Shown piece by piece: positions 39,618-44,980 of a DNA stretch of 64,000 bases. Numbering within the stretch: the stretch's first letter is position 1; every line of letters starts with the position of its first letter. The notes beneath the pieces were generated by a model that saw only the letters and a program-made list of their open reading frames with translations, had not been told where the DNA came from and searched no databases. A program made the position numbers and the translations under genes. Origin of the DNA: Synechococcus sp. NOUM97013 (GTDB lineage: Bacteria; Cyanobacteriota; Cyanobacteriia; PCC-6307; Cyanobiaceae); contig NZ_CP047941.1 in NCBI RefSeq assembly GCF_014279815.1, positions 248,001 to 312,000 on the forward strand, read 5' to 3'.

Positions 39618-41096
39618 ATGACCGCTCCCCGCACGCTTTTCTGGCACCGTCGCGATCTTCGCCTGGCGGACAACACCGGCCTGCAGGCGGCTGCGGCCCT
39701 TGGGCCTGCGGTCACCGGGGTGTATGTCCTGGACCCCGCCATTCTCAATCCACCCGCTGAGCTGCCGCCGATGGCGCCGGCGCGTCTCTGGTTTCTGGTG
39801 GAGAGCCTGGTGGAACTGCAGCAGCGTTGGCGCGACGCTGGCAGTCGTCTGCTGGTGGTGGCCGGGGATCCGGTGCAGCGTCTGCCGCTGCTGGCCTCGC
39901 TTCTGGAGGCCGCGGCGGTGGTCTGGAGTCGGGACGTGGAGCCCTACGCGCGCGAGCGCGACCGTCAGGTGGCGCGGGCTCTGCAGGCCTCCGGCCGCAA
40001 GGTGCTGGTCGACTGGGATCAGCTGCTGGTGGCTCCGGAGCTGCTCAAGACCGGCGGCGGTGATCCATACCGCGTCTATGGCCCCTTCTTGCGCAACTGG
40101 CGTGGACAGGTGGAGCGCAGCGAACCTGGCACCGTCGATGCTCCGACGGGGTTGATCGATCTGGATGCCGGCAGTCTGGAGGCATTGCAGACGGCTGCGG
40201 GTGAGCTCGGTCGCCTCTGCGCTGAAGGACAGCGCGAACTGGAGCAGCTCCGCTCCGGCCATGGCTTCCAGGGCACGGACCTCTGCCCCTGCCGTCCCGG
40301 TGAAGCGGCGGCGGCGGGACAGTTGGCTGCGTTCGTCGATGGTCCGCTGCTGGGTTACGAGCCGGATCGCAATTTCCCTGGGATGCCCGGCACGTCGTTT
40401 CTGAGCGCTGCTCTGAGTGTGGGCACCGTCAGCCCTCGCCAGGCCTGGTGCGCCGCTCAGGAGATCAAGGACGTGGCACGCAGTGATGAGCAGCGTCACG
40501 CCATCACCGTGTGGGAGCAGGAGCTGGGTTGGCGCGAGTTCTACCAGCAGGCGCTGTTTCACTTTCCTGAATTGGCGGATGGGCCCTACCGGGAGCAATG
40601 GCGTCGCTTCCCTTGGGACAACAACGAAGACTGGTTTGATTTCTGGAAGGACGGTCAGACCGGCATGCCGATCATTGATGCGGCGATGCGTCAGCTTAAT
40701 CAGACCGGTTGGATGCACAATCGCTGCCGCATGATCGTGGCCTCCTTTCTGGTCAAAGACCTGATCTGCGACTGGCGCTGGGGAGAACGCGCCTTCATGG
40801 AGCTGGAGGTGGATGGTGACCTTGCCGCCAACAACGGTGGCTGGCAGTGGAGTGCCAGCAGCGGCATGGATCCCAAACCTCTGCGCATCTTCAACCCCGC
40901 GACGCAGTCAACGAAGTTTGATGCGGATGGTGAGTACATCCGGCGATGGTTGCCGGAGCTTCGCCATGTGAACACCAAGGATCTGCTCAGCGGTGAGATC
41001 GGCGCTCTGGAGCGTCGCGGTTATCCCGAACCGCTGATCGATCACAAGAAGCAGCAGGCCCGCTTCAAAGCGCTCTACGCCACGATCCGATCGTGA
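39618..41096 (+). CDS. phr: Deoxyribodipyrimidine photolyase (CPD class I)
   Basis: This light-driven DNA repair enzyme has an N-terminal antenna domain starting TLFWHRRDLRLADNTGL and a C-terminal FAD domain. Signature segments are WEQELGWREFYQQ, GQTGMPIIDAAMRQL, TGWMHNRCRMIVASFLVKDL and DLAANNGGWQWSASSG with DPKPLRIFNP. In class I enzymes these bind FAD and the thymine dimer. ATG 39618 gives the expected start and 492 residues; the frame upstream to 39543 overlaps the NUDIX gene and is not conserved. It is convergent with the DegT gene. Confidence 0.95.
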   Translation: MTAPRTLFWHRRDLRLADNTGLQAAAALGPAVTGVYVLDPAILNPPAELPPMAPARLWFLVESLVELQQRWRDAGSRLLVVAGDPVQRLPLLASLLEAAAVVWSRDVEPYARERDRQVARALQASGRKVLVDWDQLLVAPELLKTGGGDPYRVYGPFLRNWRGQVERSEPGTVDAPTGLIDLDAGSLEALQTAAGELGRLCAEGQRELEQLRSGHGFQGTDLCPCRPGEAAAAGQLAAFVDGPLLGYEPDRNFPGMPGTSFLSAALSVGTVSPRQAWCAAQEIKDVARSDEQRHAITVWEQELGWREFYQQALFHFPELADGPYREQWRRFPWDNNEDWFDFWKDGQTGMPIIDAAMRQLNQTGWMHNRCRMIVASFLVKDLICDWRWGERAFMELEVDGDLAANNGGWQWSASSGMDPKPLRIFNPATQSTKFDADGEYIRRWLPELRHVNTKDLLSGEIGALERRGYPEPLIDHKKQQARFKALYATIRS

Positions 41097-43043: not shown

Positions 43044-43541
43044 ATGGGATTCCCCGGCCTGGCCCTGGCTCTCGTGCTCATGGGCTGTTCAGCCAGGACG
43101 GGTCCCAGCTGGAAGGTGTTCCCGCTGTCCAGACGCAGTCCCCATGACGGCCTGGCGGTGGTCAGTCAGCCCGATGGCTTTGGCCTTCATCTCTTTTTGG
43201 AGACGGACACCAGTGATCCGGAGCGATGCGAACCCCGCTGGTTCCCGGACGCCGCGCGATTGTTCAACGGCAATGGCACCGCTCCGTTCAGTGCTGGCTT
43301 GGCGCCTCGCGACGAGTTCTTCGCTGTGGTGCGTCGCAAGGAGGTTCGCGCGGCGCTGCAGAACGAACTGAAAGCGCTGTGTGCGCAACGGGCCCCGCAG
43401 GCGCGCTGGCAGTGGACGGATCCTCCGACTCAGGCCTCTGAGGTGATTCCGGTGCTGTTGCCGGCTTATGAGGGGGAGGATCTGCTCACTGATCCGGCCG
43501 AGGAACAGCAGCGTGAAAAGGCGTTGCTGGGGGAGAGTTAG
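43044..43541 (+). CDS. Putative lipoprotein of unknown function
   Basis: From ATG 43044 the protein starts with a short hydrophobic stretch, GLALALVLMGCS, that ends in a possible lipobox. The frame extends upstream to 42978 with a basic segment, which would also give a signal peptide. Later segments, such as CEPRWFPDAARLFNGNGTAPF, are not recognised. The length is about 165 residues. The stop overlaps the convergent photolyase-like gene by four bases. No function can be given. Confidence 0.6.
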   Translation: MGFPGLALALVLMGCSARTGPSWKVFPLSRRSPHDGLAVVSQPDGFGLHLFLETDTSDPERCEPRWFPDAARLFNGNGTAPFSAGLAPRDEFFAVVRRKEVRAALQNELKALCAQRAPQARWQWTDPPTQASEVIPVLLPAYEGEDLLTDPAEEQQREKALLGES

Positions 43542-43966
43542 AACCCTTCCCAGACGACAGGTTCCGCTTCACGCCAGTAGCGACTGAATCGGCCGAGCCT
43601 CGGTGGCCGCGGTAGTTGCACGAACGGCTCCGGTTCCAGCAATTCCAGATCGATCTGACCGTCAATCGCAGCCGCGATGCGCTCTAGGCGTGGATCCACC
43701 GGCAAGCTGCTGATCACTCCGTCGGCGTTGTGGCGTTTGGCGAATGCGATCACCTCCTCGGCGACGTCGCCTTTGCGCAGCGTCAGTGGCAGGTCAAGCG
43801 CGCTTTCGTAGAGAAATCCAAGGCGCTTGCGACTGATGCTGGCTGTCCGGATCCAGTGGGAGTCGAACACAAACAGTGCCGGAGTGCCCGGGTAGGCGAT
43901 CAGAGCGGGATTGCTGGGGCCCAGAGCTTCCTCATGCACCCAGAGAATCGGTTGTTGAAAGGTCAT
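43538..43966 (-). CDS. Free-standing photolyase/cryptochrome N-terminal alpha/beta-like domain
   Basis: The 142-residue protein resembles only the N-terminal antenna domain of photolyases: ILWVHEEALGPSNPALIAY, PALFVFDSHWIR, LGFLYESALDLPLTLRKGDV and EVIAFAKRHNADGVIS follow the order of WHRRDLRLxDNPAL, PVFVFDP, FLxESLxDL and the RGDP segments. It lies 6 bases downstream of the gene for a matching FAD domain, so the two would form a split photolyase in reversed gene order. ATG 43966 is preferred over the GTG just before it. Confidence 0.65.
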   Translation of the reverse strand: MTFQQPILWVHEEALGPSNPALIAYPGTPALFVFDSHWIRTASISRKRLGFLYESALDLPLTLRKGDVAEEVIAFAKRHNADGVISSLPVDPRLERIAAAIDGQIDLELLEPEPFVQLPRPPRLGRFSRYWREAEPVVWEGF

Positions 43967-43972
43967 CACGGG

Positions 43973-44980
43973 TTAGCGCTGGGGGCGGGCCATGGCGGCA
44001 CTGTTGCCGCGTCCCTGCTGGCCGCGACGGTTGTTGCTGGGACGGTTGTTGCTGCGACGGGTGTTGGGTACGTCACGGATCGCGGCCTGTGCGGCGAAGA
44101 GTTGCGATTCCAGCTGGTCGTAGCTGCCCTCAAAGGGGCACTGATTCGCGCTGGGGCAGTGTTCGCAGAAGCGCCCGTCACTGAAACGCTCGAGGTTGCC
44201 CCTGTTGAAGAAGTAGGGCTTGTGGCTGAAGCTGCTGGCCACCCATTGCCAGCTGAGGTGATTGCTGGCGGGATCGCCGTCGATCAAATGCTGGAGAAAC
44301 CAGTCCGCTCCGGCTTTCCAGTGCACCCGACGCCAGTGCACCACGTAGGCGGCCATCCACATGCGGGCGTGGTTGTGCAGCCAGCCCGTTGTGACCAGTT
44401 CGTTCTGGAAAGCATCCATGCAGGCCAAGTCGGTGCGGCCATCGCGGATGTCTTCTGGAAGGTCCCGCTGATAGGACGCCGGGTCGTGCCCGGTTTTGAG
44501 TTCCTCCTGGCTGTCATGAATGCCGTCACCAAGGTCGACCCACATCCGCTGCCAGAAGTCACGCCAACCCAGCTCATTAATCAATTTTGTGCCGTCGTCC
44601 CGGTTGCGGACGCGCTGGAACACGGCGTCTCGCACTTCGCTGAGACTGAGAACGCCATGGCGGATGTAGGGGGAGAGACCCGTTGCAGCACCCCTGAGAT
44701 GGTTGCGGCTCTTGGCGTAGCGACGCGGATCGACCTTGTTCAAGAGCTTTTCAGCTGCCTGACGCCCTCCCCTTATGGGGCTGAGTGAACCCTCGGCTTC
44801 GGGGAACTGTTCGGCCAGAAGCTGGTCGAGGGCCGTTCGGTCGTGGATCGTTCTGGGCAGATCGTCAGGCTGATCAGGCCATGACAAGGGAGCTGGGGAA
44901 GGCTGCGGCGGCACCGTTTTGGTCGACGTCGTCGGCTCATCCTGTCGATCCGATCGTTCAACCGCGACTGCCGCTGGCAA
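43973..44980 (-). CDS. Photolyase/cryptochrome FAD-binding domain protein with four cysteines
   Basis: The protein contains only the C-terminal helical FAD domain: LSPYIRHGVLS, ELGWRDFWQRMW, TGWLHNHARMWMAAYVVHW and DGDPASNHLSWQWVASSFSHKPYFFN. It has exactly four cysteines, C187, C272, C275 and C281, in ACMDAF and FCEHCPSANQCPFE. Their places match the [4Fe-4S] ligands of bacterial FeS-BCP photolyases such as PhrB and CryB (ACV, then CxxC...CPF). The longest frame starts TTG 44980; a GTG at 44914 is another choice. The C-terminal tail is rich in Asn, Arg and Gly. Activity, whether DNA repair or light sensing, is unknown. Confidence 0.8.
   Translation of the reverse strand: MPAAVAVERSDRQDEPTTSTKTVPPQPSPAPLSWPDQPDDLPRTIHDRTALDQLLAEQFPEAEGSLSPIRGGRQAAEKLLNKVDPRRYAKSRNHLRGAATGLSPYIRHGVLSLSEVRDAVFQRVRNRDDGTKLINELGWRDFWQRMWVDLGDGIHDSQEELKTGHDPASYQRDLPEDIRDGRTDLACMDAFQNELVTTGWLHNHARMWMAAYVVHWRRVHWKAGADWFLQHLIDGDPASNHLSWQWVASSFSHKPYFFNRGNLERFSDGRFCEHCPSANQCPFEGSYDQLESQLFAAQAAIRDVPNTRRSNNRPSNNRRGQQGRGNSAAMARPQR

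Follow-up and report, generated by a model that had tools for sequence, protein, structure and literature searches.

The closest described counterpart of the locus considered here is a pair of cyanobacterial genes designated phr4 and phr5 (Haney et al., 2022; PMC9426592, drawn on, like the other papers cited below, for the part of its text that was available). In that part, the pair is reported from all marine Synechococcus of an 81-genome set, and two Cyanobium strains carry it in fused form (phr6). Attention is drawn to four cysteines of the iron-sulphur (Fe-S) type, (6-4) photolyase activity is suggested, and a possible +1 frameshift is raised together with seven G-C pairs between the open reading frames (ORFs) in all strains covered there. 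Disruption of phr4 in Synechococcus RS9916 lowered survival 20- to 30-fold after ultraviolet (UV)-C exposure, not after UV-B, which was taken as (6-4) repair, while phr4/phr5 protected E. coli against UV-C without a light requirement (PMC9426592). A pair of this kind is present in the 64,000-nucleotide stretch of Synechococcus sp. NOUM97013 analysed here (contig NZ_CP047941.1, positions 248,001 to 312,000; hereafter the window), which belongs to a 2.55 Mb picocyanobacterial genome. It shares with the published pair the same two ORFs, their order, the four cysteines and a phr3-type gene a few genes off. The original prediction, made from the letters of the window, had called such a two-subunit enzyme unusual; the pair is already known, and the observation is an independent rediscovery. 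No other paper on the pair was found in a literature search limited to a PMC collection. The two accounts differ in the spacer (a 7-bp frameshifting spacer there, an in-frame spacer in the window) and in the lesion ((6-4) there, cyclobutane pyrimidine dimers, CPDs, predicted here). New relative to Haney et al. (2022) are arguments that the subunits are separate, a connection to the ‘short photolyase-like’ proteins (SPLs), a cysteine-less branch and the prediction of CPD instead of (6-4) repair.

Apart from this pair, four groups of photolyases invite comparison. The SPLs (for example, SePhrC of S. elongatus) are described as lacking the alpha/beta domain and as possible ancestors (PMC9649867, available text). 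Like Phr4, they comprise a flavin adenine dinucleotide (FAD) domain alone, class I/III-like, with an attributed Fe-S cluster (PMC9178010 and PMC9649867); the window Phr4 likewise has a class I-like FAD domain and no alpha/beta domain in its chain, whereas for Phr4 that domain is a separate gene. The NewPHL/Phr7 proteins, described as single-stranded-DNA CPD photolyases with inverted topology (PMC13274461 and PMC9426592, available text), resemble Phr4/Phr5 in having the FAD domain first and the second domain C-terminal, and in the tree they group with Phr4, opposite the class I enzymes. Unlike Phr4/Phr5, they lack the Fe-S cysteines and are encoded by one gene. Their C-terminal Z-domain may be a homologue of Phr5, but no similarity was detected (hhalign of Phr5 against the Z-domain, E 0.88; 0 of 9 Prochlorococcus Phr7 listed by the Phr5 profile at E<=10). 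The FeS-BCPs, or prokaryotic (6-4) photolyases (PhrB, CryB, SePhrB), share with Phr4 four aligned Fe-S ligands and a similar fold; Phr4/Phr5 lacks their His366/Leu370 and their N-terminal DPRP domain (PF04244, for which no match was listed in Phr4 or Phr5 up to E 1), and divides its domains between two polypeptides. What Phr4 has in common with class I CPD photolyases (1dnp of E. coli, 1owl of A. nidulans) is the residues contacting lesion and FAD and the equivalents of Trp382 and Trp359. In class I enzymes the antenna is N-terminal in the same chain and W306 is kept, whereas Phr4/Phr5 has the antenna in the other chain and a Tyr; cysteine occurs at none of the four positions in six class I rows.

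The reading favoured here, which as a whole is considered reasonably probable, is that Phr4 and Phr5 are two subunits of one photolyase, most likely a CPD-splitting enzyme. That a split photolyase-like pair is present in the window is confirmed, and its features are as follows.

43973 to 44914, minus strand: phr4-like gene, predicted FAD-binding catalytic subunit with four conserved cysteines (PF03441, 3e-23); likely start GTG at 44914.
43973 to 44980, minus strand: Phr4 open frame including the TTG start, 335 residues.
43538 to 43966 (or to 43969), minus strand: phr5-like gene, putative separate antenna-type alpha/beta subunit on the basis of profile and model, 142 or 143 residues; start ATG at 43966 or GTG at 43969.
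43964 to 43975, minus strand: junction in the sequence, TAA (43973-43975) CCC GTG ATG (43964-43966), with phr5 in the same frame as phr4.

FAD_binding_7 is the entire Pfam content of Phr4 (3e-23), and the sole Pfam match of Phr5 is to the DNA_photolyase antenna domain (E 0.024, far under the curated cut-off). The domain order across the pair, on one strand, is FAD then antenna, opposite to that of ordinary photolyases. The spacer measures 6 nt to ATG 43966 and 3 nt to GTG 43969. The arrangement originally proposed, with a gene for an FAD domain alone and, 6 bases later, one for an antenna-like domain alone in reversed order, agrees with the ORFs and Pfam matches, the antenna match being weak and the fold model lending support. 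Most relatives' Phr4 begin near GTG 44914 (alignment A1 of relatives), which is probably the true start; TTG 44980 probably sits too far upstream.

The way in which the two halves adjoin varies among relatives. Junctions could be read at 112 of the 114 genus and family loci examined; L141, where the contig begins inside phr5, and L134, with a broken phr4 frame, were dropped. At L134 (G066:C12:98.3-99.6 kb) the phr4 frame lies in several pieces with phr5 present, reflecting either a pseudogene or an assembly error. The family junctions comprise 80 split loci, with frame offsets 0, 1 and 2 at 22, 10 and 48 of them, and 32 fused single ORFs. For the genus (n=29), 14 junctions are in frame, 4 have offset 1 and 11 have offset 2, the latter with the TGATG overlap; just 3 of the 29 show a 7-nt gap between phr4 and phr5, and the window has no such spacer. 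The mechanism proposed would have Phr4 as the catalytic subunit, binding FAD and a [4Fe-4S] cluster and holding the lesion. Phr5 would be the antenna-type alpha/beta (Rossmann) subunit, equivalent to the N-terminal domain of ordinary photolyases, which docks on Phr4 as a heterodimer and probably bears the light-harvesting chromophore. Where the genes adjoin, translation of the two polypeptides would be coupled, as ATGA/TGATG-like overlaps suggest; some lineages would make one fused ORF with the FAD domain first, and others would keep the genes apart in the genome.

The two genes also travel together. A phylum-wide sample of 386 cyanobacterial genomes was searched with a Phr5 profile (>=70 bits) and a Phr4 profile (E<=1e-40), matching 85 and 84 genomes, respectively; both were present in 83, Phr5 alone in 2, Phr4 alone in 1 and neither in 300. 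The weakest accepted Phr5 match scored 73 bits and the next ones about 30 bits or below, most of these sub-threshold matches falling in open frames that, at 478-623 residues, are as long as a whole photolyase. The Phr5-alone genomes are G240, whose contig starts inside phr5, and G599, which has a 79-residue remnant without a strong Phr4 match; the remnant (L210, about 79 matched residues) looks as if the partner decays once Phr4 is lost. The Phr4-alone genome, G303, gives a weaker match from which the cysteines are absent. This cysteine-free Phr4-like FAD domain (L313) sits in a 451-residue frame whose C-terminal part is unrecognised by the Phr5 profile. Within the genus, a Phr4 match (E<=0.001) occurs in 30 of 31 genomes and is strong in 29, the other two genomes being 58% and 63% complete; in the family, Phr5 is found in 109 of 271 genomes (>=90% complete) and 15 of 34 genera. 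At 14 of 40 fetched loci no Phr4 lay within about 5 kb of Phr5, and 13 of these 14 genomes have a strong Phr4 elsewhere. Both genes occur in 55 genomes of this sample outside the family: they lie within 5 kb of each other in 32, on the same contig 26 kb to 4.9 Mb apart in 12 and on different contigs in 11.

A wider pattern scan of the genome collection, of which the best 80 loci were retained, reaches Chloroflexota, Acidobacteriota and Alphaproteobacteria, besides fused forms that occur beyond cyanobacteria in Planctomycetota, Methylotenera, one Acidobacteria and one Eremiobacterota metagenome-assembled genome (MAG). Among these 80 loci, 13 are fused and 56 have Phr5 downstream on the same strand. 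The fused ORFs are all in FAD-antenna order, both in the family (32/32) and among the best 80 loci (13/13; some genomes are in both sets). Two titles deserve caution: genes of L287 (titled Klebsiella pneumoniae MAG) and L260 (titled Tatlockia MAG) group with other bacteria, those of L260 among cyanobacteria, perhaps reflecting mislabelled or mixed bins. For a phage version, tblastn of Phr4 returned 10 phage records, none spanning 80% of the query; the eight matches listed are 26-31% identical to Phr4, two being annotated as photolyase and the rest unannotated.

The window Phr4 has exactly four cysteines, at 187, 272, 275 and 281 (numbering of the 335-residue frame), and Phr5 has none. Their codons are given below; each cysteine is invariant in alignment A4 and falls on an FeS-BCP ligand column.

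44420 to 44422, minus strand: codon of Cys187 (ACM), first predicted [4Fe-4S] ligand.
44156 to 44167, minus strand: codons of Cys272 and Cys275 (CxxC), predicted [4Fe-4S] ligands.
44138 to 44140, minus strand: codon of Cys281 (CPF), predicted [4Fe-4S] ligand.

Alignment to two cyanobacterial FeS-BCPs by hhalign pairs all four cysteines with ligand columns (probability 97%, E 2.9e-11), which bears out the FeS-BCP-like placement initially noted. Since the cysteines occur in all 112 readable loci of the window's family and are invariant in the 43-row cyanobacterial alignment A4 (from which L211, without the cysteines, was excluded), they are not a matter of chance. Phr4 very probably carries a structural [4Fe-4S] cluster. 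Conservation, on which the original prediction had staked the cluster, is complete in the family and incomplete beyond it. Overall, 214 of 230 pair-type loci have the four cysteines. This set is fed in part by the wider scan and counts some genomes twice (as they are present in two collections). Neither L134 nor L206, whose frame is truncated, belongs to it, nor do the six class I and nine Phr7 rows. The 16 cysteine-less loci are one cyanobacterial locus (L211, genome G479) and 15 from the wider scan, by title nine Alphaproteobacteria (SAR116 included), two Chloroflexota and one each of Gammaproteobacteria, Acidobacteria, Obscuribacterales and the Klebsiella-titled MAG.

L285-L287, L289-L292, L294, L297-L299, L302, L304, L306, L307: wider-scan loci without the cysteines, with a Phr5-type gene beside Phr4.

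As a Phr5-type gene lies directly downstream of Phr4 in all 16, the pair can do without the Fe-S set; judging from these sequences, a mostly proteobacterial branch keeps the pair without cysteines. In a tree of 102 rows (‘quick’ method, rows >80% identical thinned, weak support for 54 of the 99 inner branches), Phr4-type sequences, together with Phr7, are separated from five class I rows with full support. The cysteine state switches at least 4 times (Phr7 counted) and the split/fused state at least 7 times in this tree, of which the well-supported branches force just 1 change for the no-cysteine group and 2 for the fused group.

For Phr5, the assignment draws on fold and sequence together. 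Modelled alone, with a predicted local distance difference test (pLDDT) score of 95.4, it adopts the photolyase antenna-domain fold. Its top Foldseek match is 2j07, and it superposes on 1iqr (Z 12.3, root-mean-square deviation (rmsd) 3.7, 130 aligned residues, chain range 2-148) and 4dja (Z 11.8, rmsd 4.0, 137 residues, chain range 2-166), ranges which suggest that Phr5 includes the first part of the linker between the domains. Universal stress proteins have the same fold (Z up to 10.7 vs 12.3 for the best photolyase); therefore the fold alone is insufficient and sequence matches to antenna domains matter too. A broad Phr5 profile matches the window's own phr3 product (E 1.8e-7, residues 10-128; 24-protein set), and matches to antenna domains in whole genomes range from E 1e-3 to 8e-7. 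In the 24-protein set (E<=10) the profile found 7 of 10 class I photolyases, missing three from Prochlorococcus, and gave no match among four Phr2/FeS-BCP proteins or Phr1. Against PDB sequences Phr5 is weak, with a best E of 0.06 for the profile and 1.3, to an unrelated protein, for the single sequence. A read-through chain of both halves was modelled with pLDDT 89.5 and a predicted template modelling (pTM) score of 0.89; natural fusions, co-occurrence and this confident two-domain model argue for an interaction between Phr4 and Phr5.

With regard to the substrate, PhrB His366 and Leu370, placed by the HHxxRL motif, align to Phr4 Asn203 and Met207 (hhalign with FeS-BCPs). In PhrB, the substitutions H366N and L370M introduce the CPD-photolyase counterparts, the former abolishing and the latter reducing (6-4) repair (PMC4619345, available text). 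Asn203 is present in all 230 pair-type loci. Among the 214 four-cysteine loci, E136 is found in 209 and W139, N203, N240 and W246 in 214 each, while position 207 is Met in 199 and Leu in 15. In E. coli numbers (mapped by hand from an alignment), Phr4 E136, W139, N203, M207, N240 and W246 are E274, W277, N341, M345, N378 and W384, which we take to be the CPD contacts; the window Phr4 has this class I set complete (Glu274/Trp277/Asn341/Met345/Asn378/Trp384), and all 9 Prochlorococcus Phr7 carry the same CPD residues. The FAD domain is also closer in sequence to class I CPD enzymes (1owl, 4.9e-25) than to the FeS-BCPs (4dja, 1.9e-4). Given CPD-type residues at the lesion site, CPD repair is expected, contrary to the published suggestion; Phr4/Phr5 most likely splits cyclobutane dimers, perhaps with a preference for single-stranded DNA as in NewPHL enzymes.

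The alternative proposed by Haney et al. (2022), in which Phr4/Phr5 acts as a (6-4) photolyase that contains an Fe-S cluster, is unlikely on present evidence. It accounts for the alignment of the four cysteines with FeS-BCPs and for a mutant phenotype under UV-C and not UV-B (PMC9426592, available text). The (6-4) photolyase 7ykn, moreover, heads the fold list for the FAD half of the model (Z 17.2, rmsd 3.3, 230 residues), yet it is counted as tied with the Fe-S (6-4) photolyase 5kcm (Z 17.0, rmsd 4.0, 265 residues) and the class I enzyme 1iqr (Z 16.5, rmsd 3.9, 252 residues). Against it stand the replacement of the essential His366 and Leu370, by Asn without exception at the former, and the class I affinity of the FAD domain. 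The initial likeness to (6-4) FeS-BCP enzymes does not extend to the lesion, where the residues are of the CPD photolyase type, and (6-4) activity by analogy with these enzymes is disfavoured. Furthermore, the same genome offers a better (6-4) candidate in Phr2, which is its one PF04244 match and which, by its motifs, looks more like such an enzyme. In this Phr2 (L345, G000:C1:1252381-1253040) HHxxRL is kept and the Fe-S cysteine ligands are absent. The published CPD assignment of Phr2 may have been swapped with that of Phr4/Phr5.

Several points weigh against a two-subunit CPD photolyase. The phenotype confined to UV-C has been taken as (6-4) repair (PMC9426592, available text), light-independent protection in E. 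coli is odd for any photolyase, and Phr4 has Tyr170 in place of W306, the distal member of the class I Trp triad. The cysteine set is missing from 16 of the 230 pair-type loci, and the pTM of 0.89 was obtained with the two halves tethered in one read-through chain, an arrangement which may favour docking. Because relatives share ancestry, the co-occurrence counts lack phylogenetic independence, and fragmented assemblies could hide phr4-phr5 linkage where the genes are on different contigs. At 11 of the best 80 wider-scan loci there is no Phr5 in the fetched stretch; in two of these (L235 and L241, the only ones traced) it is located elsewhere in the genome.

The light-independent protection of E. 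coli after UV-C would be accommodated if Phr4/Phr5 were a light sensor (cryptochrome) or a light-independent DNA-binding protein rather than a repair enzyme. This is improbable in view of the near invariance of the catalytic and CPD-contact residues and the 20- to 30-fold loss of UV-C survival on disruption in Synechococcus (PMC9426592, available text). That programmed +1 frameshifting or read-through of the phr4 stop codon normally yields a single protein from the two ORFs, for which the natural fusions (32 of 112 family loci) and the constant 7-bp GC spacer in the strains of Haney et al. (2022; available text) speak, is very improbable and rejected as a general mechanism, since junctions in all three frames, the rarity of the 7-nt gap and genes lying 26 kb or more apart or on different contigs leave a conserved frameshift without explanatory power and fit two polypeptides.

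Near the pair, the window encodes a separate photolyase.

39618 to 41096, plus strand: phr3-like class I CPD photolyase (PF00875 3.5e-44, PF03441 4.9e-76); start ATG 39618 inferred from translation.

Its match to TIGR03556 has an E of 9.9e-192, though at 638 bits it lies below the curated cut-off of 884.6; the normal CPD photolyase initially noted near the pair is indeed there, at about 39.6-41.1 kb. The relation of the proposed two-subunit photolyase to the SPLs can be traced in G313, an S. elongatus-type genome. Its CPD photolyase shares 96% identity over 251 residues with the solved A. nidulans/S. elongatus enzyme, the one other class I-like match is Phr4, with Phr5 directly after it, and the third gene is an FeS-BCP. 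By elimination, and by inference from this close relative, SePhrC of S. elongatus would be Phr4, its ‘missing’ domain being the next gene.

Taken more broadly, it seems somewhat on the probable side of even that several bacterial phyla share a photolyase family made as two polypeptides: an FAD (and Fe-S) subunit and a stand-alone antenna, whose gene may even lie megabases off, with repeated switches between split and fused forms. The ‘short photolyases’, taken in the literature for antenna-less forebears of all photolyases, would then each be one half of an enzyme, the other half having gone unnoticed. The Fe-S cluster would be removable and unrelated to (6-4) specificity, Phr4/Phr5 being a CPD enzyme with the cluster and marine Synechococcus Phr2 a (6-4) enzyme without it. 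The pair is carried by all marine Synechococcus of the 81-genome set, and loss of phr4 costs UV-C survival (PMC9426592, available text). If Phr4/Phr5 is an obligate two-subunit enzyme, the photolyase antenna domain would be a partner that can be detached, and antenna transfer from one protein chain to another could be studied directly; the case for antenna-less SPLs as ancestral photolyases would be undercut, and the lesion assignments of two cyanobacterial enzymes would change, Phr4/Phr5 to CPD and Phr2 to (6-4).

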